Positions 7,032 through 33,026 of a stretch of 36,863 bases of DNA are shown here, one piece after another (the first letter of the stretch is position 1; the number at the start of each line of letters is the position of its first letter). The notes beneath the pieces are model-generated. The model saw only the letters and a program-made list of their open reading frames with translations, was not told the origin of the DNA and did not search any database. This stretch comes from Verrucomicrobiaceae bacterium (GTDB lineage: Bacteria > Verrucomicrobiota > Verrucomicrobiia > Verrucomicrobiales > DEV007). Both the position numbers and the translations under genes were made by a program. The DNA lies in NCBI GenBank assembly GCA_012719225.1, contig JAAYAT010000112.1, forward strand, positions 1 to 36,863, written 5' to 3'.

Positions 7032-7094
7032 GGGATCGTTTTCGGGAGACAATGGTTTGCGGAACTCCGAAACCGTGAAGATAATGGCCCCAGC

Positions 7095-7772
7095 ATGAGC
7101 GACTGCAACACCCGAATCATCGCCCCCTCGATTCTCGCGGCCGACTGGTCGCGGATTCGCGACGAAGTGACCAGGACCGAAAACGCCGGTGCCGACTGGC
7201 TCCACCTCGATGTCATGGACGGTCATTTTGTCGAAAACGTCTCCTTCGGGCCCCAGTTCGTCGCGGCGGTCCGCCCGCACGCGGCGATCCCTCTCGATGC
7301 GCATCTCATGATGACCCACCCCGACCGCTACCTCGACCGCTTCATCGACGCCGGGGCGGACCGCATCACCGTCCACGTCGAAGCGGACCACGACGTCGGC
7401 GAGACCCTGGCGCGGATCCGGGCGGCGGGGCTCGGTTGCGGGCTCGCCCTGAATCCGGCGACGCCCTTCGAGGCGGTCCTTCCCTGGCTCGACCGGATCG
7501 ACCTTCTCCTCGTCATGACGGTGGTCCCCGGATTCGGCGGACAGGCCTTCATGGAAGAAGAGACCATGCCCAAGGTCGCGGCGGCGCGCGCCTACCGGGA
7601 GGATCACGATCTCGCCTGGCATATCGAAGTCGATGGCGGGATCGACCAACGCACCGCCGTCATCGCCGCCGCCCACGGCGCCAACGTCATGGTCGCGGGG
7701 ACGGCGCTCTACGGCGCTCCCGACATGGCGCAAGCGATCCTGAAAATGCGGGGCGGTTCTCCCGGAGAGTGA
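7095..7772 (+). CDS. rpe: Ribulose-phosphate 3-epimerase
   Basis: This enzyme interconverts ribulose 5-phosphate and xylulose 5-phosphate in the pentose phosphate pathway. The 225-residue product is a standard-length TIM barrel with APSILAADW, LDVMDGHFVENVSFGP (metal-binding Asp and His), DAHLMMTHPDRY, VMTVVPGFGGQ, and EVDGGID ahead of NVMVAGTALYG, the phosphate-binding end. ATG 7095 opens MSDCNTRIIAPSIL, matching the family's usual start. Its stop shares one base with the xseA start (TGATG), implying translational coupling. Confidence 0.96.
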   Translation: MSDCNTRIIAPSILAADWSRIRDEVTRTENAGADWLHLDVMDGHFVENVSFGPQFVAAVRPHAAIPLDAHLMMTHPDRYLDRFIDAGADRITVHVEADHDVGETLARIRAAGLGCGLALNPATPFEAVLPWLDRIDLLLVMTVVPGFGGQAFMEEETMPKVAAARAYREDHDLAWHIEVDGGIDQRTAVIAAAHGANVMVAGTALYGAPDMAQAILKMRGGSPGE

Positions 7773-9100
7773 TGAGCGACCACGTCCATACCGTCGCGGG
7801 GATCACCGCCCTCCTCCGCGAGAACCTCGAAGAGCGGTTCCGCGGGGTCTGGATCGAGGGCGAGATCAGCAACCACCGGCTTCCCGGATCGGGGCACCAT
7901 TACTTCACCCTCAAGGATCCCTTCGCCCAGCTCGCCTGTGTCTTGTTCAAAGGGGCTGCGGCAAAAAGTCCGGTGCGGCTGAGCGACGGCCTCCAGGTGC
8001 GGATCTACGGGAACATCTCGGTCTACGAAGCGAGGGGGCAGTACCAGTTGATCGCCCAGACCGTGCAGCCGAAGGGCTACGGCGATCTGCAGGCGAAATT
8101 CGAAGCGCTGAAACGCCGCCTCGAGGCCGAGGGACTCTTCGATCCGGCGGCGAAAAAACCGCTCCCGGCCTTTCCCCGGACCATCGGCATCGTCACCTCG
8201 CCGACCAGCGCGGCGATACGGGACATGCTCAACGTCCTCGGACGCCGGGCGCCGTGGATTCGTGTCCTCATCCATCCGGTGCGGGTTCAGGGCGATGGGG
8301 CGGCCGAGGAGATCGCCGCCGGGGTCCGCGCCTTCGACGAGGCGAAAAACATTCCCCGTCCCGATCTCGTCATCGTCGCCCGCGGCGGAGGCAGCATCGA
8401 GGATCTCTGGGCTTTCAACGAGGAGGTCGTGGCCCGCGCCATCGCCGCCTCCTCCCTCCCGGTGATGTCCGGGGTCGGGCACGAGATCGATTTCACCATC
8501 GCCGATTTCGTGGCGGACCGCCGCGAGCCCACCCCCAGCGCCGCCGCGGAAAACGCCGTTCCCGACGGATTCGCCCTGCGACGCCATCTCGGACGCCTGC
8601 AGGATTCGCTAGACGCGAAAACCGAACACGCTCTGGCGATTTCGTCCCGCCATCTCCAATCGCTCCAGCGCGAACTCGCGGCGCGGGAACCGGGGCGGAG
8701 GATGCGTCAGTGGACCCAGTCGCTCGATTATCTCGGCGAGCGCATCGAGGCCGCCCTCTCCGTGCGACTCTCGCGTTGCCGGGGCGACCTGGGGAGCGCG
8801 CGCCGCGGGTTGCAGGCCCTCCAGCCCGAGCGGGAACTGGCTCGCCGCCGCGAACGCGTCCTCGAGACGGGCGGGCGATTCGACCTGGCCGCCCGGCGGG
8901 CCTTCGCCGACCGCCGCCGTCAGTTGGAAAATCTGGGCACCCTGATGGAATCGCTCAGCCCCGACTCCATCCTCCGGCGGGGATTTTCCGTGACCACGGA
9001 TCCCTCGGGCCGGGTCGTGAAATCGGCCGGTCAGGTGAAGGCGGGGGAAATCATCCAGACCCGTTTCGCCGACGGGAAGATTTCCAGCGTGGTGGAGTGA
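7772..9100 (+). CDS. xseA: Exodeoxyribonuclease VII large subunit
   Basis: XseA is the catalytic subunit of exonuclease VII, which degrades single-stranded DNA from both ends. The 442-residue product has an N-terminal OB fold (about 5-105, with GVWIEGEISNHRLPGSGHHYF) and the Exonuc_VII_L domain. The latter includes IGIVTSPTSAAIRDML, VARGGGSIEDLWAFNEE, GVGHEIDFTIADFVADRRE and the typical TPSAAAE, followed by a coiled-coil-rich region (about 280-390) and a final LRRGFSVTTD strand. The start at 7772 overlaps the rpe stop by one base. The small subunit gene xseB is not adjacent and must be elsewhere if present. The pairing with rpe has no obvious functional meaning. Confidence 0.96.
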   Translation: MSDHVHTVAGITALLRENLEERFRGVWIEGEISNHRLPGSGHHYFTLKDPFAQLACVLFKGAAAKSPVRLSDGLQVRIYGNISVYEARGQYQLIAQTVQPKGYGDLQAKFEALKRRLEAEGLFDPAAKKPLPAFPRTIGIVTSPTSAAIRDMLNVLGRRAPWIRVLIHPVRVQGDGAAEEIAAGVRAFDEAKNIPRPDLVIVARGGGSIEDLWAFNEEVVARAIAASSLPVMSGVGHEIDFTIADFVADRREPTPSAAAENAVPDGFALRRHLGRLQDSLDAKTEHALAISSRHLQSLQRELAAREPGRRMRQWTQSLDYLGERIEAALSVRLSRCRGDLGSARRGLQALQPERELARRRERVLETGGRFDLAARRAFADRRRQLENLGTLMESLSPDSILRRGFSVTTDPSGRVVKSAGQVKAGEIIQTRFADGKISSVVE

Positions 9101-14008: not shown

Positions 14009-15964
14009 TTACTCCGAAACCGTCACGTTGACCCATTCCCCGAAGACGGGAAAGCGGGAATCCGCCTCCATTTTCCAGCCGATCTGGAAACCGATGGCGG
14101 GCTTCAGGAAGGAGATCGCGGGGACGGAAAAGCTCTCCTCTTCGCCCAGCCCGCTGTAGCGCCACTCGGTCGGTCTGGCGTCGGCGCGGGGGCGCACCCG
14201 ACAGAGGATTTCGGCCCCGTCGGGCAGATGGCTCTTCCATCCGTCGGGGAATTCCGGATGGATCACGATTTTGTCCCCGCGCCGGAAGGCGTCGCCGGCG
14301 GTGATCTCCGGGAACGCCTGTGAGGCGTCGGCATATTCCTCCCGCAGGTCGGCGAGCTGTCTGCGGAAATCCGATCGGACCCGCTCCAGATCGAAATCGG
14401 CGGCGAGGCAGGCGTCGCGCCAGAGGGCGAGGCCCCGGAGCTTGCGCGGTCCCTCGCGGCGTCCGAGGGCGCGGAGGAGCTTCGCGGGCGCGTCATCGCC
14501 GTAGACCCGCACGAGGGAGTCGACCCAGAGATAGCCGGCCGGGTAGGCGAGGAAGGGGTCGCGCTTCGTCGAGAAGGTTTCGTTGTGGACCATTTCGGAA
14601 AATTCCACTTCCTCCCACTGCGCGGCGAGGGCGATCCAGCGGCGGTAGGCGGTGGCCCCGCTGTCGTCCCGGAAAAAGCGGAACTCGACGTAGCTGGCGA
14701 GTCCCTCGTGGAACCAGCGGGCCGCGTCGAAGGATTCCCCGAGCCTCCCGTCGGTGATCTGGTCGAGGAAGACGTGGGTGATCTCGTGACCGAGGATGGC
14801 GACGCCTTCCTTGTCACCGGGGTCGGGGTTGTCCTCGTCACCAGGCGGCAGGGTCATGCGGATTTTTTTCCAGTAGGCCTGCCCGGCGTTGTGCGCGGCG
14901 AGGGGGCTGGAGAGATCGACGGTGATGCGGTCGCCGCGATCTTCCTCCGGCATTTCGAGGAAGTCGGCCACGGTCTCGTGGATCGCGTCGGCTTTCGCTT
15001 CCAACGTCTCGACCCGGTGCTGGATCTCCCGGCGATAGACGAAGAGGAAGCGTTCTGATTCCGTCGTGACGATTTCTTTTGCGCGGTCTACCGGCGAGGC
15101 CGGGGCTGCCGCCTCGGCGCGAGCGGTTTCGACACTGTCCTCCCACGAGACCGTGACGAAGATGCCCAGCCAGATCACCACGATCAGGACGACGGCGCAC
15201 CCGCCCGCGAGTTTTCCCCAGCAGGTCTCGCGGAGCCTGCGCGAGAAGGCGCTGGCGGAACCCTGACGGAACGAGAACAGGATATAGCCGACGATCCACG
15301 CGATCAGGGCGATGACGCCCATGACGAGGAGTTGGAGCCGGGGCCATTCCCATCGGTCATCGATCTCAGCCGGGGCGACGAGGAGGGAGGAGGGGTCGAG
15401 CAGTTCGGCGTAGGGCGCTTGCAGGGATCGCAAGCCGAGCAGAATCCAGAAGACCGCGCCGATCGCGACGAGGGTCCAGCGCCGCAGGAAGGAAAAGGCG
15501 ACCAGCAGGGTGATAAAATACACGCCGAGAAAGAGTTCCAGCACGGCGAAAACGCCGATCGACCGCCACGGGACGGGCGGCGAGGCGCTCCCGCGCGAGA
15601 GCAGGTCGTAGACGATGGACTCGAGCGTCCAGAGCAGGTTGACGGCGGAAACGAGGGCGACGGCGACGAGCCATTTGGCGAGATAAATGGAGAAGCGCGA
15701 GAGGGGGAGCCCGTCGAGATAGAGCAGGGTGCCCTCGTCTTTTTCCCGGACCATCAGGCCCAGCGAAACCACCGCACAGAGGATGAAGGTCATCGCAACG
15801 ACCGAGCCGAGGTTGCCGATGGTGTTTGCCCAAAAGGGGTAGACGTCGAAATACTCCGTCGCCTGGACCAGGAAAAGGCCGAAGACAAACAGCGCGAGGA
15901 GGAGCAGGGCGAAGGGGCGCAGCGAGACCCACTCTTTCCAGAGAATGGCGCGGAAGGCTCTCAT
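14009..15964 (-). CDS. ABC-2 permease fused to an extracytoplasmic HExxH peptidase-like domain
   Basis: The 651-residue protein has two parts. About residues 1-290 form an ABC-2-type permease with six to seven hydrophobic helices, starting MRAFRAILWKEWVSLRP, the usual cytoplasmic amphipathic opening, with REKDEGTLLYLDGLPLSR as the typical helix-2 loop. About 300-651 form a soluble domain carrying HEITH (393-397) and, 22 residues on, WFHEGLASYVE with Glu420, the gluzincin-type zinc site of the peptidase MA clan. The domain follows a membrane segment (VVLIVVIWLGIFVTVS) and is probably outside the cytoplasm. The C-terminal 100 residues (about 540-651) look like a beta-rich appendage. The ATG at 15964 overlaps the previous stop by four bases (ATGA). 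It is the third gene of the ABC operon, the partner of the degenerate permease and the ATPase. The substrate is unknown. Confidence 0.85.
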   Translation of the reverse strand: MRAFRAILWKEWVSLRPFALLLLALFVFGLFLVQATEYFDVYPFWANTIGNLGSVVAMTFILCAVVSLGLMVREKDEGTLLYLDGLPLSRFSIYLAKWLVAVALVSAVNLLWTLESIVYDLLSRGSASPPVPWRSIGVFAVLELFLGVYFITLLVAFSFLRRWTLVAIGAVFWILLGLRSLQAPYAELLDPSSLLVAPAEIDDRWEWPRLQLLVMGVIALIAWIVGYILFSFRQGSASAFSRRLRETCWGKLAGGCAVVLIVVIWLGIFVTVSWEDSVETARAEAAAPASPVDRAKEIVTTESERFLFVYRREIQHRVETLEAKADAIHETVADFLEMPEEDRGDRITVDLSSPLAAHNAGQAYWKKIRMTLPPGDEDNPDPGDKEGVAILGHEITHVFLDQITDGRLGESFDAARWFHEGLASYVEFRFFRDDSGATAYRRWIALAAQWEEVEFSEMVHNETFSTKRDPFLAYPAGYLWVDSLVRVYGDDAPAKLLRALGRREGPRKLRGLALWRDACLAADFDLERVRSDFRRQLADLREEYADASQAFPEITAGDAFRRGDKIVIHPEFPDGWKSHLPDGAEILCRVRPRADARPTEWRYSGLGEEESFSVPAISFLKPAIGFQIGWKMEADSRFPVFGEWVNVTVSE

Positions 15965-24371: not shown

Positions 24372-25610
24372 TCACCAGGAGCTGCGGATGCCCAGCATCC
24401 AGGTGCCGGTGTCCACCGTGTCATTGGCCGATGCGTAAATGTCACCGGTGGCGTGTTCATACCCCGCCATGACCTTGAGGTTGTTCTTGCAGATGTAGTA
24501 GTTGAACCCGGCGTAGAAGGTGTGGTAACCCTCGACGGACTGACGGGCGTCGTAGCGCTGGGGCCGTTGTTCGCGCCCTTCTCCCATGTAGGCGTAACGA
24601 GTCACGAACTGCAGGTCGTCGGTGATGTTGTAGTAGGGCATGATGACCACCCCGGCGGTATCAAACCCGGCCGGGAGTGCTCCGGTGGCGAGTCCGTTGG
24701 CGGCGTAGATCACATCGGTGAGCAAGCCGAGTCGGCCGAATTCGGAAACCGTTCCCAGCGAGACGACGTGTTCGAAGGCGGAGCCGAGGCTGGTGTCCGC
24801 GCTGCCGCGGGGATTGACCGCTCCATCGCTGTTGTTGGTGAACTGATAGCCGAACTGGATTTCCGTGTCTTCGGTGAAATCAAAGGAGTTCCGGTAGGTC
24901 AGGCTCCCGCGGGAATCGAAGTCAGCCCAATCGTATCGTTCTCCGGTGAAGTCGCGGTCCGCACCGGCGATCCATCCGCCCACTTCGTGACTGAGGCCGA
25001 GAGCTTCAAAACCAACGGCGACACCCCACGGCTTGTTGGAGATAACGGCGTTGGAGATCGCGGAGCGCTCGATCGTGAGGATGCTGTTCGAAGACATCTT
25101 GTTCTCCGCAGTGATCTTCTGCTTGGATTTGCCGAGGATGACGTAGAACTCATCCGAAGGCTCCCAGGCGATGTTTATTTCGTCCCAATCGTCGAAGAAG
25201 GTACCGTAGGTCAGACCGTGCGATCCCGTCCCGCCGCTGCCATCACTGACGTTGAGGATGGCGGTGAAGGTGAGGTCGTTGGCCATTTCGATCTCGGTCC
25301 CGAGCCGGAAGCGGCGGTGTTGGAATTCGTGGTATCCGTTGGTGGTTTCGACACCGCCGGCGAGGGTGTCTTCCGTCTGGGAGATCCACTGGCCGTGGTA
25401 GCGCCCTTTGAATTTCACGGATCGGATGAATCCGTCGCCTTCGTAGAGCTTGTTTTTCTTGAACACGTCGCACCAGGACGTGTCCACGATGGGCATTTTG
25501 TCATTGATGACGGTTTTCCCGTATTCTCCGGCGGTGACCGAGGCGACGCCCGCGAGCGCGATGGCCCCGGTAAGAGCGGTTACTGGTAGTGTTATTCTAT
25601 TTTTTTGCAT
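24372..25610 (-). CDS. Outer-membrane porin, probably phosphate-selective (OprO/OprP-like)
   Basis: The 412-residue product has a signal peptide (about 1-28, ending VTAGE) and a beta-barrel with alternating hydrophobic residues: FKGRYHGQWISQTEDT, RRFRLGTEIEMANDLTFTAILN, EFYVILGKSKQKITAE and GYHTFYAGFNYYICKNNLKVM. It ends SSW, an aromatic C-terminus usual for porins. The family is phosphate-selective porin O and P by overall pattern and by its divergent neighbour pstS; phosphate specificity is inferred from that context rather than from residues I can align. ATG 25610 opens MQKNRITLPV. It shares a 339-base regulatory region with pstS, where Pho-box-like sites lie about 70-85 bases upstream of this start. 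Confidence 0.8.
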   Translation of the reverse strand: MQKNRITLPVTALTGAIALAGVASVTAGEYGKTVINDKMPIVDTSWCDVFKKNKLYEGDGFIRSVKFKGRYHGQWISQTEDTLAGGVETTNGYHEFQHRRFRLGTEIEMANDLTFTAILNVSDGSGGTGSHGLTYGTFFDDWDEINIAWEPSDEFYVILGKSKQKITAENKMSSNSILTIERSAISNAVISNKPWGVAVGFEALGLSHEVGGWIAGADRDFTGERYDWADFDSRGSLTYRNSFDFTEDTEIQFGYQFTNNSDGAVNPRGSADTSLGSAFEHVVSLGTVSEFGRLGLLTDVIYAANGLATGALPAGFDTAGVVIMPYYNITDDLQFVTRYAYMGEGREQRPQRYDARQSVEGYHTFYAGFNYYICKNNLKVMAGYEHATGDIYASANDTVDTGTWMLGIRSSW

Positions 25611-25949
25611 GGTGTGATCGGTTTTCGAACCTGTCCGAATCCATGGCGGAAAATCCGCCGAAAAGCGAAGGGAAAAATGTGACGATGCCGTCACGCATGG
25701 AACCGTCGATCCAGCTCGCGGCCCTGTCTCAGGGCGTTTCATGCCGTTTTACGCATGTTCCATCGCGCGAATGCGCCCTCCATCCGCTTCGGTCCCCGAG
25801 TCCCGTCGGTTTTCACATGTGTCGTGACTGTCACATACGGCGGTTTGAAACGGGGTTGTGGATAGGGATGGTTGGCCGCGTTCGATCGGCGAATTCCTCG
25901 CTGGCTCGACAAATTCCTAAACGAAAACAAACCCTACCCAACTCAAGAA
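25611..25949. promoter_or_regulatory. Divergent porin/pstS control region with two Pho-box-like palindromes
   Basis: This 339-base gap holds no gene. Two inverted pairs of GTGAC and GTCAC stand out: 25679-25694 (arms 6 bases apart) near the porin, and 25824-25834 (arms 1 base apart) near pstS. The second includes CTGTCAC at 25828-25834, identical to a classic PhoB half-site, with a TGT-containing 7-mer 11 bases before it. The first can be read leftward as two 7-mers 11 bases apart (GCGTGAC and TCGTCAC), the second matching the PhoB half-site at five of seven positions. Phosphate-starvation control by a PhoB-type regulator is a reasonable inference, but no regulator gene is present in the window. 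Confidence 0.45.
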
Positions 25950-26927
25950 ATGAAACTCTCTCAAAATCTGTGGAAAGTCGGTCTGATGGCCGCGGCGGTT
26001 CTCCCGGCCTGGTCTCAGGCCGATGATGTCGTCAAAGTCGATCCGGCCATTCCCGCCTACGAGGTCGTCAGCGGGGTGACCGGCAACCTGAACTCGATCG
26101 GGTCCGACACCCTCAACAACCTCATGACCCTCTGGGCCGAGGGCTTCAAGGCCAAATACCCGAACGTGAACATCCAGATCGAAGGGAAGGGGTCCTCGAC
26201 CGCTCCCGTCGCCCTGATCGAAGGCACCGCCCAGCTCGGCCCCATGAGCCGTGCGATGAAGTCGGAGGAAATCGACCAGTTCGAGAAGAAATTCGGCTAC
26301 AAGCCCGTGGAAGTGAAGGTGTCCATCGACGCCCTCGCGGTCTACACGCACAAGGACAACCCGGTCAAGGGTCTCACCCTGAAGCAGGTGGACTCGATTT
26401 TCTCCTCCACCTTCAAAGCCGGCGGCACCGCGATCACCAAGTGGGGTCAGGCGGGACTGGAAGGCGAATGGGGCGACAAGGACATCTCCAAGTACGGCCG
26501 CAACAGCGCCTCGGGCACCTACGGGTTCTTCAAGGACGTCGCCCTCCTCAAGGGAGACTACGATGCCTCGGTCAAGGAGCAGCCCGGTTCCTCGGCGGTG
26601 GTGCAGGGGGTCGCGAGTGATCTCGGCGGGATCGGCTACTCGGGGATCGGCTACAAGACTTCGAGCGTGAACGCCATCGCGCTCGGGTCTTCGCCCGACG
26701 CCCTCTTTCCGCCCTCCTACGAGAACTGCCTCAGCGGCGACTACCCGATGGCTCGTTTCCTCTACGTCTACGTGAACAAGAACCCCGAGAAGGCGCTCGA
26801 CGCGCTCACTCTCGAGTTTCTCAAGTTCGTGCTCTCGCAGGAAGGCCAGGAAGTGGTCGTCAAAGACGGCTATTTCCCCATGCCCGCCGAAGTCGCCGCC
26901 GAAGTGGTGGGAACGATCTCGAAGTGA
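25950..26927 (+). CDS. pstS: Phosphate ABC transporter, substrate-binding protein PstS
   Basis: PstS captures orthophosphate in the periplasm and delivers it to PstCA. The 325-residue product has a signal peptide (about 1-24, ending SQADD) and the periplasmic binding fold with phosphate-contacting loops: GSDTLNNLM, GKGSSTAPVALIEG, and YGRNSASGTYGFFKD. DLGGIGYSGIGY and the C-terminal QEVVVKDGYFPMP are also family-typical. ATG 25950 (MKLSQNLWKVG) starts the signal peptide. pstC follows after 84 bases containing a strong hairpin (26974-27008), so pstS can be expressed above the permease genes. Confidence 0.95.
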   Translation: MKLSQNLWKVGLMAAAVLPAWSQADDVVKVDPAIPAYEVVSGVTGNLNSIGSDTLNNLMTLWAEGFKAKYPNVNIQIEGKGSSTAPVALIEGTAQLGPMSRAMKSEEIDQFEKKFGYKPVEVKVSIDALAVYTHKDNPVKGLTLKQVDSIFSSTFKAGGTAITKWGQAGLEGEWGDKDISKYGRNSASGTYGFFKDVALLKGDYDASVKEQPGSSAVVQGVASDLGGIGYSGIGYKTSSVNAIALGSSPDALFPPSYENCLSGDYPMARFLYVYVNKNPEKALDALTLEFLKFVLSQEGQEVVVKDGYFPMPAEVAAEVVGTISK

Positions 26928-26973
26928 TTCCGGTCGAAATTCGACGGAAACTCAGGTGAAAACACTTGTCTTT

Positions 26974-27008
26974 GGTGCCAAGGTCCCATCCCTTGGCACC
27001 CTTTCTTG
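26974..27008 (+). terminator. Terminator/attenuator-like hairpin between pstS and pstC
   Basis: A perfect 10-bp stem (GGTGCCAAGG, loop of 7, CCTTGGCACC) is followed by CTTTCTTG, a short T-rich tail. It starts 46 bases after the pstS stop and ends just before the pstC ATG at 27012. It would stabilise the pstS message or end most transcripts after pstS, giving more binding protein than permease. Confidence 0.65.
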
Positions 27009-27011
27009 AGC

Positions 27012-28982
27012 ATGAACACCCTCCCGGACCCCACGGAGACCCAGCCCCAGGCTCAGGTCCCGCGACCGACTCCCGATCCGAAACGCTTCGAGGCGTCGCG
27101 ACGGGTGCTCCTGACAGATGCCTTCATGAACGGCTTCATCAAGGTGGGCGGGATTTTCGTGGTGGTGGCGGTGATCGGCATCTTTGTCTTCATCGTGTCC
27201 CAGGTTCTGCCGATGTTCCAGTCGGCCCGGGTGGAGGTCGAGGGAGGCGGGGTCGTCTCCGAGGTCCTGCCGGAAGGGGACTACGTCGCCATCGCCGTGG
27301 ACGAATGGGGGGAACGCCCTCTGGCCCTGCATCGGAACGGGCGATTTTTTTACTCCGATCTGACCGACGCGGGAGTCGTCCGTGAGGCGGAGTTTACTTT
27401 TCTGGAAAACGACGACGACATTTCCGCGGTGGCCGCCGTGCCCGGATCGGGAGTGTTTGCGGTGGGCACCGTCGGCGGCGGGATCCATCTGCTCGATTAT
27501 GCCTACGAACCGGTTTTTCACGAAGGAGAACGAAGCATCGAGGGGAACCTTACCGAGGCCTATCGCGGGGAGGCGGGTGGCCCGGTCCGGGTCCTCGGAT
27601 TCGGTCAGTCGGAGTCGGCTCGTCTCGTGGCGGTGTTGGCGGATACGGACGACGGTCCCCATCTGCGCGTCACCCTGGTGGAGCGGAAACGCAGCCTCGT
27701 CGGGGCGGGCAAGTGGACGGAATCCGCCGTGATCGATCTCACGGATTCCCTGCGCGACGGCGTCGCGGTGCGATCGCTGCACGTCTCCAATCGGACCGAC
27801 GCCGTGCTGGTGGTGTTTGAAAACGGCGAGGTGGACTACCACTTTCGCTCCGGCTCGGAGACGAGCTTCTCCCTGCGACAGACCTTCCGTCCCTTTTCGG
27901 ATCTCGACGACCCGAGTATCGCGGCGTCGGGTTTTCTGTTTGGCGACGTCTCGATGGTCTTTGTCTCCTCCTCCGGGGCCAACCGCGTCTTCAGTCTCTA
28001 CCGCACCGAGGAGGAACCGGTCCGGCTTTTTCATCGCACCAAAAATTTCGAAGCCCTTCCGGAGGCGGCCGGTTTTCTCGCGAAAAGTCTCCGCAACAAG
28101 GCCTTCCTGACCGGCTCGGGCGACCATGTCAGTCTCCGCCACGCCACCACGGAGAAGGTGCGATGGGAAGGAGATCTGCCCTTCCAGGTCCGCCACGCCC
28201 TCGTGGGGTCGAAGTATGACTCGCTCCTCTTTTTCTCCGACGAACGCCGTTTCCACCGCCTCCCGCTCCGGGATCCGCATCCCGAAGTGAGCTTCCGGGC
28301 GCTTTTCGGCAAAGTCTGGTATGAGGGTTCGCCGGAACCGAAATACGAATGGCAGTCCACCGGCGGGTCCGACGATTTCGAGCCGAAGCTCTCCCTCGTC
28401 CCTCTCATTTTCGGCACCTTCAAGGGCACCTTCTACGCGCTCCTCTTCGCCCTGCCCATCGCTCTCTTCGGCGCCATCTACACCTCCGAGTTCCTGCATC
28501 CGCGCAACAAGGTCTACGTGAAGCCGGTCATGGAGATCATGGCGTCCCTGCCCTCGGTGGTGCTCGGCTTCCTCGCCGCGTTGTGGCTCGCCCCCATTCT
28601 CGAAAATCGGTTCCCCTCGCTGCTCTGCATCGTCTTCCTCCTCCCGGCGGGTTCGTTCCTGATCGGCTGGCTCTGGAGCCGCCAGCCCCAGGCGATCCGC
28701 AAGCATGTCCCTCCCGGACGCGAATTCCTCTATTTCACTCCGCTGCTGTTGCTCCTCCTCGTCGTCGGCTGGCATCTCGGGCCTCTCCTGGAGCAGGTCC
28801 TCTTCCGGGTGAAAGATTCCGCCAGCGGAGAATGGGTCGGCGACTTCACGAGATGGTGGCCCGCCGTCACCGGCACCGCCTACGAACAACGCAACTCGCT
28901 GGTGGTGGGTTTCGTGATGGGATTCGCGGTCATCCCGATCATTTTCACCATTTCCGAGGACGCCCTCTCCAATGTGCCGTGA
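27012..28982 (+). CDS. pstC: Phosphate ABC transporter permease PstC, cut short by an in-frame TGA
   Basis: PstC is one of the two channel subunits of the Pst phosphate importer. The open frame here encodes 656 residues: a polar N-terminus, TM1 (about 42-64), a large extracytoplasmic insert (about 70-455) with repeated short beta-strand units that look propeller-like, then the permease core from about 462 (LVPLIFGTFKGTFYALLFAL, SLPSVVLGFLAALWLAP and VIPIIFTISEDALSNVP). A TGA at 28980-28982 ends it immediately before the conserved cytoplasmic loop. The reading frame continues without shift for another 121 codons as normal PstC sequence. Large N-terminal inserts are known in PstC of several Proteobacteria, so the length is not itself odd. 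ATG 27012 is used; a TTG lies two codons earlier. As written the product lacks the ATPase-contact loop and last helices and should be inactive. Confidence 0.9.
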   Translation: MNTLPDPTETQPQAQVPRPTPDPKRFEASRRVLLTDAFMNGFIKVGGIFVVVAVIGIFVFIVSQVLPMFQSARVEVEGGGVVSEVLPEGDYVAIAVDEWGERPLALHRNGRFFYSDLTDAGVVREAEFTFLENDDDISAVAAVPGSGVFAVGTVGGGIHLLDYAYEPVFHEGERSIEGNLTEAYRGEAGGPVRVLGFGQSESARLVAVLADTDDGPHLRVTLVERKRSLVGAGKWTESAVIDLTDSLRDGVAVRSLHVSNRTDAVLVVFENGEVDYHFRSGSETSFSLRQTFRPFSDLDDPSIAASGFLFGDVSMVFVSSSGANRVFSLYRTEEEPVRLFHRTKNFEALPEAAGFLAKSLRNKAFLTGSGDHVSLRHATTEKVRWEGDLPFQVRHALVGSKYDSLLFFSDERRFHRLPLRDPHPEVSFRALFGKVWYEGSPEPKYEWQSTGGSDDFEPKLSLVPLIFGTFKGTFYALLFALPIALFGAIYTSEFLHPRNKVYVKPVMEIMASLPSVVLGFLAALWLAPILENRFPSLLCIVFLLPAGSFLIGWLWSRQPQAIRKHVPPGREFLYFTPLLLLLLVVGWHLGPLLEQVLFRVKDSASGEWVGDFTRWWPAVTGTAYEQRNSLVVGFVMGFAVIPIIFTISEDALSNVP

Positions 28983-29348
28983 GCGCTCCGCTCCGGTTCG
29001 CTCGCACTCGGGGCGAGCCGCTGGCAGACGGCCTGGCGGGTGGTCCTGCCGACGGCTTCGGCCGGCATTTTCTCGGCCCTGATGATCGGTCTGGGCCGGG
29101 CCGTGGGGGAGACGATGATCGTGGTCATGGCCACGGGGAACACCCCCATCATGGAATGGAACATTTTTTCGGGGATGCGCACGCTCTCGGCCAACATCGC
29201 GGTCGAACTCCCCGAGGCACCCCACCACGGCACCCTCTATCGCACCCTCTTCCTCGGGGCGCTGGTGCTTTTCCTCCTCACTTTCGCGATCAACACCATC
29301 GCCGAAGTGCTGCGCCAGCATCTCCGCGAGCGATACAAGACGGTGTGA
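28983..29348 (+). pseudogene. pstC: C-terminal remainder of PstC after the in-frame stop
   Basis: In the same frame as the upstream part, these bases encode ALRSGSLALGASRWQTAW, the cytoplasmic EAA-type coupling loop, then VVLPTASAGIFSALMIGLGR, AVGETMIVVMATGN and the last helix (LVLFLLTFAINTIAEVL), ending LRERYKTV. The sister subunit PstA shows the parallel stretch AVSRGAREASLAAGASKWQ, where Arg aligns with the PstC TGA. A CGA to TGA change (C to T at a CpG) would explain the stop. An internal GTG at 29040 could start a 102-residue fragment, but this would begin after the coupling motif and is not credible as a protein. pstA follows after 30 bases. Confidence 0.85.
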
Positions 29349-29378
29349 CCCTCCCGCGATTTCCCGCCCCATGCGCCC

Positions 29379-31046
29379 ATGAGTTTTTTCCATTCCTCAC
29401 AATCCAAATCGGACGGCACCGCCCCGGGGGAACCCATGGTCTGGTTTTCCGGGATGTGGTTGGCGATCGGCCTGCTCATGATCGTCACCCTCCTGACGGT
29501 GATCGTGAAAAACGGACTGACCTTGTTCTGGCCGTCAAAAATCGTCCGGATCGAGTTGGTCGAGGGCAGCGCGGCGGCGATCCAGGGTGCGAGCAGTTTC
29601 GCCGGAGAAGTGCGCAAGCGTCAGGACAAAAGCATCCGCGACGCCGAGGGCCACGCCATCCCCGAGTTGCAGTTCTTCGTGGGCAATCGCGACGCCTACG
29701 GTTTCGGTTTCCGCTACGTCGATCAGGCCGACATCGCGGCCCGGACCTATCCGGAGAATTTCCTCGTGGCGGAGCGCCTGGAATACGGGGACCTCCTGGG
29801 ATATCCGGTCGCGCTGAAGCTCGCCGACGGGACGGTCGCGGTGGACGCGCCGGATTTCCGGGAGCGTCTCCGGGCTCTCGTGGACGAGGGCAACCAACGA
29901 CGTCACGAAATCGAGCGGATCGAAAAAGGGGAGATCGGGGCGATCAACCGGAAGATGGAGGCTCTCAAGCTCTCGCTCCGCAAAGCCGAGCTGGGAGACA
30001 CCCTCACCGATGCCTTCCGCGCCTCCGTCGAGGAAGAGACCGCCGCACTCCAAGCCGAGTACGAAGTCCTCGCGAAAGAGGCCTCCTCCCTGCGGGCCGA
30101 GCAGAAAGTGGCGCGCTTTGTCTATCGCCTCGACACCGGGGCGGAGCGCGAAACGGCCATCGGGAATCTCATCCATTTTTATTATCCCAACGAGATGGGA
30201 TTTTTCGGCCGGGTCGGCCATTTCCTCGCGGAAATCTGGAACTTTCTCTCGGAAGATCCCCGCGAAGCCAACACCGAGGGAGGGGTTTTCCCGGCGATCT
30301 TCGGGACCTTCGTGATGACTCTGCTGATGAGTCTGGTGGTCGTGCCCTTCGGAGTCGTCGCGGCGATCTACCTGCGCGAGTATTCGAAACAAGGACCGCT
30401 CGTGCGGGCGGTGCGCATCGCGGTGAACAATCTCGCCGGAGTGCCCTCCATCGTTTTCGGGGTGTTCGGGTTGGGCTTTTTCGTCTACTTCGTCGGCGGC
30501 GGGATCGACAGCCTCTTCTATCCGGAACGACTCCCCACGCCCACCTTCGGCACCGGAGGGATTCTCTGGGCCGCCCTGACCCTCGCCCTCATGACCGTGC
30601 CCGTGGTCATCGTCTCGACCGAGGAAGCTCTCGCCGCCGTCTCCCGGGGCGCTCGCGAGGCCTCGCTGGCGGCCGGCGCCTCGAAGTGGCAGACCATCCA
30701 ACACATCGTCCTGCCCGCTTCGGTGCCGGGCGTGATCACCGGCCTGGTCCTCTCGATGGCCCGCGGGGCCGGGGAGGTCGCCCCGCTCATGCTCGTCGGG
30801 GTGGTCAAGCTCGCCCCCACCCTCGCGCTCGACGCGCAAGCTCCCTTCGTCCATCTGGAGCGCAAGTTCATGCACCTCGGCTTCCACATCTACGATCTCG
30901 GTTTCCAGTCCCCCGACTCCGAGGCCGCCAAGCCCATGGTCTTCGCGACGACCTTGCTCCTGATCGCCCTGGTCGTCGTCCTCAACGCCACCGCCATCCT
31001 GCTCCGGGAACGGTTGCGGCGGAAATATGCCTCGAGTGCCTTTTGA
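29379..31046 (+). CDS. pstA: Phosphate ABC transporter permease PstA
   Basis: PstA is the second channel subunit of the Pst importer. The 555-residue product has TM1 (about 22-45), a long extracytoplasmic insert (about 50-295) with a probable coiled coil (about 165-245: repeated Glu/Arg/Lys heptads such as KMEALKLSLRKAELGD), and a permease core from about 302 (AIFGTFVMTLLMSLVVVPFG). The coupling loop AVSRGAREASLAAGASKWQ and the final VAPLMLVGVV helix are intact. Extended PstA of this kind is also known from Proteobacteria such as Pseudomonas, where it pairs with a long PstC. ATG 29379 begins MSFFHSSQSKS. pstB starts 12 bases after its stop. Confidence 0.94.
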   Translation: MSFFHSSQSKSDGTAPGEPMVWFSGMWLAIGLLMIVTLLTVIVKNGLTLFWPSKIVRIELVEGSAAAIQGASSFAGEVRKRQDKSIRDAEGHAIPELQFFVGNRDAYGFGFRYVDQADIAARTYPENFLVAERLEYGDLLGYPVALKLADGTVAVDAPDFRERLRALVDEGNQRRHEIERIEKGEIGAINRKMEALKLSLRKAELGDTLTDAFRASVEEETAALQAEYEVLAKEASSLRAEQKVARFVYRLDTGAERETAIGNLIHFYYPNEMGFFGRVGHFLAEIWNFLSEDPREANTEGGVFPAIFGTFVMTLLMSLVVVPFGVVAAIYLREYSKQGPLVRAVRIAVNNLAGVPSIVFGVFGLGFFVYFVGGGIDSLFYPERLPTPTFGTGGILWAALTLALMTVPVVIVSTEEALAAVSRGAREASLAAGASKWQTIQHIVLPASVPGVITGLVLSMARGAGEVAPLMLVGVVKLAPTLALDAQAPFVHLERKFMHLGFHIYDLGFQSPDSEAAKPMVFATTLLLIALVVVLNATAILLRERLRRKYASSAF

Positions 31047-31058
31047 ATCTGTCGAAGA

Positions 31059-31934
31059 ATGCGCCATGCGATGATGGAAAATACCCAAAACCTGGAAGAA
31101 GCTACCCCGATGTCCCTGCCGTCCACGCCCCTCCCCAGCAGCGCCGATACCCTGTCCGCCACCGGTCCCGTCCGGTGCCCCGACTACATTCAGGTCCGCG
31201 ATTTCTGCTTCAATTACACACCCGAGGTTCGGGTGCTCCACGACATCACCATGGACATCCCCGAGAACGAGGTGACCGCCTTCATCGGCCCCTCGGGTTG
31301 CGGGAAGACCACCCTGCTGCGGAATTTCAACCGGATGAACGACCTCATCGACGGCATCTCGCACGAGGGAGTCATCACCGTTGACGGGCAGGACATCTTC
31401 GACCCGAATCTCGAGGTCATCTCTCTCCGCAAACGCATCGGGATGGTCTTCCAGAAATCGAACCCCTTTCCCAAATCCATCTACGAAAACGTCGTCTACA
31501 GTCTCCGCATCGCCGGGCAGAGGGATAAAAACATCCTCGACGAGGTGGTCGAGCGCAGCCTCCGCGGCGCGGCCCTGTGGGACGAGGTGAAAGACCGGCT
31601 CCAACAGAGCGCCCTGGGACTTTCCGGCGGACAAATGCAGCGCCTCTGCATCGCCCGTGCGATCGCCAACCAACCGCACATCCTCCTCATGGATGAACCC
31701 TGCTCGGCGCTCGATCCCATCGCCACGGCGAAAATCGAGGAGTTGATCAGCGAACTCAAGGAGCAGTTCACCGTCGTCATTGTGACCCACAACATGCAGC
31801 AGGCCGCCCGCGTCTCGGACCGCACCGCGTATTTCTACCTCGGCAAACTCATCGAGATGGACGAGACCACGAAAATTTTTGCCAACCCCTCGAAGAAGGA
31901 GACCGAGGACTACATCTCGGGTCGCTTCGGGTGA
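31059..31934 (+). CDS. pstB: Phosphate ABC transporter ATP-binding protein PstB
   Basis: PstB powers the Pst importer. The 291-residue product has Walker [10 protein letters not shown] (77-85), [10 protein letters not shown] just after it, the Q-loop [17 protein letters not shown] (the PstB hallmark), ABC signature [17 protein letters not shown], Walker [13 protein letters not shown], and [13 protein letters not shown]. The C-terminal [12 protein letters not shown] is also diagnostic. An N-terminal leader of about 40 residues precedes the fold; possible starts are ATG 31059, 31071, 31074 and 31110, and I use the first. No phoU, phoB or phoR follows in this strand. A foldback element begins 8 bases past the stop. 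Confidence 0.95.
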
Positions 31935-31942
31935 TCCTTCAC

Positions 31943-32108
31943 TAGCAGCCTGTCGGACTTAGATCGTCTGAGCGAGGAATTTGTGGTTCGAGCCAGAATT
32001 TTCATGAGTTTGAGGAATTTGTGTGGACACAAATGACGAAAACGAAGGGAAATTCGGGCCGAATCCACGGCTTTCGCAGCCGGGTGAGATAAGTCCGACA
32101 GGCTGCTA
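31943..32108. mobile_element. 166-bp MITE-like foldback element with 19-bp terminal inverted repeats
   Basis: TAGCAGCCTGTCGGACTTA at 31943-31961 is the exact reverse complement of 32090-32108. Both ends carry TA, so a TA target duplication (as in IS630/mariner-type elements) is possible. No coding capacity for a transposase is present, so movement would need one supplied elsewhere. Inside are a 12-base direct repeat GAGGAATTTGTG (31974-31985 and 32012-32023), a hairpin (TTTGTGT-GG-ACACAAA, 32018-32033), and an imperfect inner inverted repeat, so the whole element can fold into a long stem. It fills nearly the entire gap between convergent pstB and the cyclase gene and could also act as a terminator. 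Its identity as a mobile element is an inference from structure. Confidence 0.7.
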
Positions 32109-33026
32109 AGGAAAGGACTCGACCGCGAAGACCTCCACCCCCCGGGCGCGGCCTTTGACGCGGCGCACCCCGTGATTCGCGCAGTGCCGGCGGATCCCGG
32201 GCAGTTCCTTCACGAAATCACCGGAGAGGAGGACGTTCTTGCCCAGCTCGCGGGTCAGCGACTCGAGGCGGAAGGTGAGGTTGACCGGATCCCCCACGAG
32301 GGTGAACTCACCCTGACTCATGCCTCCGTAGGCCACCTTGCCGACGTGCAGGGCCACCCCCACTTCGAAGCGGCGATCGGTCTTGGCAAACACGTCGGGA
32401 CGGGATTCGTAGATTTTTTCACAGGAATCGAGCAGCCGTCGCGCCGAGCGCAGGGCCGCGTGGAGGGTCTCCGCGTTCACCGTCGTCCAATAGGCCAAAA
32501 CACAGTCGCCGATGAACTTGTCGAGGGTGCTGCCCTCTTCGGAAAGGATCTGTTCGCAGTCGGAATACCAGCCGCCGATGACCTGCGCGAGTTCGTCCGC
32601 CTCCAGTTTTTCGGAGAGGGCGGTGAAGCCCTTGATATCGCTGACCAGCAGCACCACCGGAGTCGAGCGGATCAGGGCGATGGTCGAGCCGCCGATGTCT
32701 TCGGTGTTTTGAACCGACGGGGCATCGCCGGTCTCCTGGTAGTGGAACTCGTGATCGGCGAAACTGAGAACATCCCCGTGCCGCAGTTGCCGGGTCGCGG
32801 TGAGCCGGGCGCCGTTCAAATAGCTGCCGTTGAAGCTGCCGAGATCGAAAAGATAAAATCCCCCGTCCTGCTTCCGGATCATGGCGTGGCGACGCGACAC
32901 GCGCGGATCGGAGAGCTGGACCTGACACTCCGCGCTGCGTCCGATGATGGCGACGGGGGCGAGCTCGATGGTCTCGTCGTTTTCGATGCGATGGAGGAAT
33001 GCGTTCACGTGCGGAGATGGAATCAT
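32106..33026 (-). CDS. FHA-domain adenylate/guanylate cyclase (class III)
   Basis: The 306-residue protein joins an FHA phosphothreonine-reading domain (about 5-95: VAIIGRSAECQVQL, SRRHAMI and LGSFNGSYLNG) to a class III nucleotide cyclase catalytic domain (about 120-300). Metal-binding aspartates are Asp130 in LLVSDIKGFTALSE and Asp174 in FIGDCVLAYW; GDPVNLTFRLE is the family's transition-state region. No membrane segment is present, so it is cytoplasmic. cAMP or cGMP preference cannot be read safely. The start is ATG 33026. The stop codon TAG is made by the end of the adjacent foldback element (32106-32108), so the last few residues may have been altered by the insertion. It is divergent from the acyl-ligase gene. 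Confidence 0.9.
   Translation of the reverse strand: MIPSPHVNAFLHRIENDETIELAPVAIIGRSAECQVQLSDPRVSRRHAMIRKQDGGFYLFDLGSFNGSYLNGARLTATRQLRHGDVLSFADHEFHYQETGDAPSVQNTEDIGGSTIALIRSTPVVLLVSDIKGFTALSEKLEADELAQVIGGWYSDCEQILSEEGSTLDKFIGDCVLAYWTTVNAETLHAALRSARRLLDSCEKIYESRPDVFAKTDRRFEVGVALHVGKVAYGGMSQGEFTLVGDPVNLTFRLESLTRELGKNVLLSGDFVKELPGIRRHCANHGVRRVKGRARGVEVFAVESFP

Follow-up and report, generated by a model that had tools for sequence, protein, structure and literature searches.

The closest described counterpart of the gene analyzed here is PstC of the phosphate importer PstSCAB (TIGR02138; PF00528). In Sinorhizobium meliloti Rm1021 a natural frameshift in pstC is known, whose repair yielded the strain RmP110 (PMC12445080, PMC9561847). 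Given Rm1021, a disrupted pstC in a strain with a sequenced genome is an event of a known kind. A literature search for pstC nonsense alleles did not reveal any. The locus described below resembles that of Rm1021, a natural single pstC lesion in a sequenced strain, but differs from it in that the lesion is a nonsense codon instead of a frameshift and resides in an unverified draft genome. It shares with PstSCAB the gene order pstS-pstC-pstA-pstB as well as matches of both halves of pstC, in the right order, to the PstC model; in contrast to PstSCAB, its pstC is interrupted by a TGA. The window, i.e. the whole stretch of 36,863 nucleotides that was analyzed, is an entire contig (G000:C21). The following features of the operon were identified:

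25872-26927, plus strand: pstS-like gene for a phosphate-binding protein (PF12849 PBP_like_2, 5.7e-31)
27012-28979, plus strand: 5′ part of pstC, encoding a long N-terminal region followed by the beginning of the permease domain (TIGR02138 positions 47-138; orthologues align across the stop)
28980-28982, plus strand: in-frame TGA (Gly in 7/7 close orthologues)
28983-29348, plus strand: 3′ part of pstC, encoding the EAA-type coupling loop and the C-terminal part of the permease, with the true stop at 29346-29348 (PF00528 positions 86-182, TIGR02138 positions 182-293, dN/dS ~0.03)
29379-31046, plus strand: pstA, intact (TIGR00974, 243 bits, above the cut-off)
31059-31934, plus strand: pstB, intact (TIGR00972, 391 bits, above the cut-off)

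Read directly from the window, the pstC frame runs SNVP, stop, then ALRSGSLALGASRWQ, and continues without a shift through KTV to the TGA at 29346-29348, giving a normal PstC C-terminus. In profile searches the two halves of the gene matched consecutive sections of TIGR02138 (296 positions), with 84.6 and 117.2 bits, respectively, each counted separately against a cut-off of 196.45; as the stop breaks the frame, no single open frame exceeded this value. The tail was matched to nearly the end of PF00528 (184 positions). Since the matched model positions are split around the stop, the TGA lies upstream of the EAA-type coupling loop. Both the in-frame stop with an unshifted continuation to 29348 and its location just upstream of this loop, as the original prediction had proposed, were thus confirmed by the sequence and by the positions of the TIGR02138 and PF00528 matches. 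When read through the TGA, pstC aligned end to end with close orthologues (~75-79% identity), the stop being the sole break between intact flanks. As this read-through frame aligns over its full length, it is not a chance reading, and the gene is an interrupted pstC. Its start is most likely the ATG at 27012, which was picked by eye, while the ORF list places it at the TTG at 27006.

Without the interruption PstC would comprise ~780 amino acids (noted for 27012-28430) and PstA (29379-31046) has 555, both far above the ~270-300 positions of the PstC and PstA models. The additional length is common to the orthologues of Verrucomicrobiota, and part of the extra PstC region was also matched in Planctomycetota (loci L012 and L013). 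This long N-terminal region distinguishes the gene from PstC of PstSCAB; no Pfam family covered the extra region.

The PstS-like, PstA and PstB neighbours of pstC are all open frames, in agreement with the claim that the rest of the operon is undamaged. The start of the pstS-like gene, read by eye, is probably the ATG at 25950. Between pstS and pstC a terminator-like hairpin with a 10-pair stem (26974-27000) was noticed, which could lower the expression of pstCAB relative to pstS. Divergent from the operon, a phosphate-selective porin O/P-like gene (PF07396) resides on the minus strand (24372-25742); near it, at ~25815-25835, TGTCA-type motifs were seen by eye that resemble a PHO box. Just 3′ of pstB, on the opposite strand, lies a gene encoding an FHA domain and, fused to it, an adenylate/guanylate cyclase domain (32106-33026).

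Alignment of homologues, suggested with the original prediction as a way to find the residue at the stop, disclosed a Gly codon (GGA, GGG or GGC) in all seven close orthologues (loci L003-L009, several of which recur as L014-L019). One further genome of the same genus has Asp at this position, and distant homologues contain Ala, Pro, Asp, Ser, Arg, Lys, Gln, Thr or Asn. None of the ~30 homologues compared has a stop there. Because the orthologues carry Gly, the simplest origin, judged by parsimony, would be a first-position G-to-T transversion converting GGA into TGA. An Arg codon (CGA) changed to TGA by C to T deamination at a CpG, as had been suggested, was rejected as the simplest origin, since the Arg was taken from the paralogue PstA and the orthologues have Gly. 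The variability of the position indicates that the residue itself is not critical.

As almost any inserted residue might be acceptable here, and frame and tail of pstC are fully conserved, a near-cognate tRNA or an unseen suppressor might read through the TGA and yield full-length PstC. We consider this unlikely, since TGA is the usual stop in the window: 18 of the 21 predicted genes with a visible stop end in it (the interrupted pstC counted as two), among them pstC and pstA, and RF2 (prfB) was found in the genome. Moreover, a UCA anticodon was absent from all tRNAs located; given that this set is incomplete (e.g., tRNA-Trp, -Cys and -Ile are missing), a suppressor tRNA is formally possible. 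The stop is kept in no relative, and the RNA 3′ of it is ordinary, with no SECIS-like or stimulatory structure above shuffled sequences (z = -0.98; the stretches of relatives included in the folding are not exactly homologous and provide a loose background only). Still less probable is a real but leaky TGA, at which a little full-length PstC would be made and phosphate import tuned by the efficiency of termination.

Insertion of selenocysteine or a reassignment of TGA can point to the in-frame TGA with its conserved continuation and to nothing else. In the profile search of the genome the best match to SelB reached 181.6 bits (cut-off, 242) and adjoins a tRNA gene, a position that would suit EF-Tu. 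Matches to tRNA-Sec remained below the gathering cut-off, the two best being Ser-tRNA(tga) and Gly-tRNA(tcc). Thus, neither SelB nor tRNA-Sec was detected above the cut-offs, and the relatives have Gly, not Cys or Sec, at the stop. Nor does the genome resemble those with a reassigned TGA (codes 4 and 25): TGA is its main stop codon, prfB is present, and the aligned genes sampled contain no second in-frame TGA, i.e. one case in 24,417 codons. Both possibilities are therefore extremely improbable, and neither a read-through of the TGA, which had been raised at the outset, nor its recoding was supported. Just as improbable is a split of PstC by the stop into two subunits, each translated on its own. 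The GTG at 29040 is in frame and does open an ORF of 102 amino acids, but it is situated within or just past the coupling helix, so that conserved residues would be lost, and the gene is split in no relative.

To assess how rare such lesions are, 596 kb of the source genome were compared with ~500 kb of relatives. In 61 orthologous stretches comprising 24,417 codons, no stop other than the TGA in pstC fell within a well-aligned gene, and no frameshift was convincing. Possible frameshifts at 7053-8428, 26664-27199 and 29076-29475 of the window and at 14657-15448 of locus L096 were judged to be shadow frames, as a gene in another frame matched better. Other flagged stops were close to the ends of alignments, where the flanking identity was poor, and were located 5′ of likely starts. 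Because the pstC stop is thus the only internal one and convincing frameshifts are lacking, the draft assembly is not generally error-ridden within the sample.

These data bear on the possibility that the base is a sequencing or assembly error, or belongs to a minority strain in the consensus, and that pstC is undamaged in the living cells. We regard this as a serious possibility, only a little short of an even chance. The genome is a highly fragmented draft of 443 contigs, and in 4 Mb of draft sequence one wrong consensus base would not be remarkable. The pstC stop is the only one of its kind in the sample, and its tail lacks decay. Furthermore, G-to-T changes are also the signature of oxidative damage artefacts (PMC12390751). 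On the other hand, no further nonsense codon or convincing frameshift occurred in the aligned codons, and the base is 7.9 kb away from the nearest contig end.

The tail 3′ of the stop showed a dN/dS of ~0.03 to the nearest relatives, and its private changes are two conservative ones (V to L, V to I) among 121 residues. Most of this divergence is probably older than the stop; therefore the dN/dS value shows only that there was no detectable time for decay. An undecayed tail fits a very recent mutation and a sequence error equally well. Together with the absence of the stop in relatives, it supports the original prediction that pstC either suffered a recent nonsense change of one base or is wrong in the sequence.

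We infer, with about an even chance of being right, that pstC is an ordinary gene hit by a very recent single nonsense substitution, most simply GGA to TGA, and that the base is real and the allele null. Against a real mutation stands the fragmented state of the draft, in which the same picture would arise from a consensus error or from a mixture of strains. By our judgement, which was not computed, the chances that the null allele is real and that the consensus is wrong are about equal. If the allele is real, translation would stop ahead of the coupling helix, and the product would consist of the N-terminal region and the first permease part, devoid of the PstB-docking loop and the last helices. 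From what is established for type I ABC importers, a truncated PstC that lacks the coupling loop and the last helices would probably be inactive.

Phosphate uptake is redundant in this genome, and thus the loss of one pstC is tolerable. Contig C339 (L050) encodes an intact PstC and PstA, both above the cut-offs; an ORF 5′ of them occupies the position of PstS and has no family match. The same contig bears a catalase-peroxidase gene. Another contig, C226 (L095), ends within a strong PstB match and may adjoin C339, the second Pst system apparently being split over the two contigs; this second set is apparently complete in the draft genome. A transporter of the PHO4/Pit type, a Na/Pi cotransporter and PhoU were found as well. 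The routes of phosphate entry would then be this second Pst set, the Pit-type transporter and the Na/Pi cotransporter. The predicted knockout of the importer consequently holds at most for the present operon, but not for the strain as a whole, which has another PstSCA(B) set as well as two further phosphate carriers.

Neither a real lesion nor an error would change the general understanding of the system. In case of an error, the gene would be a caution for the automated annotation of draft genomes. A natural pstC lesion has already affected the work with one sequenced strain. If the stop is real, the organism would be another strain in which one of two Pst systems was lost recently, and such a loss can alter the control of the phosphate-starvation response.
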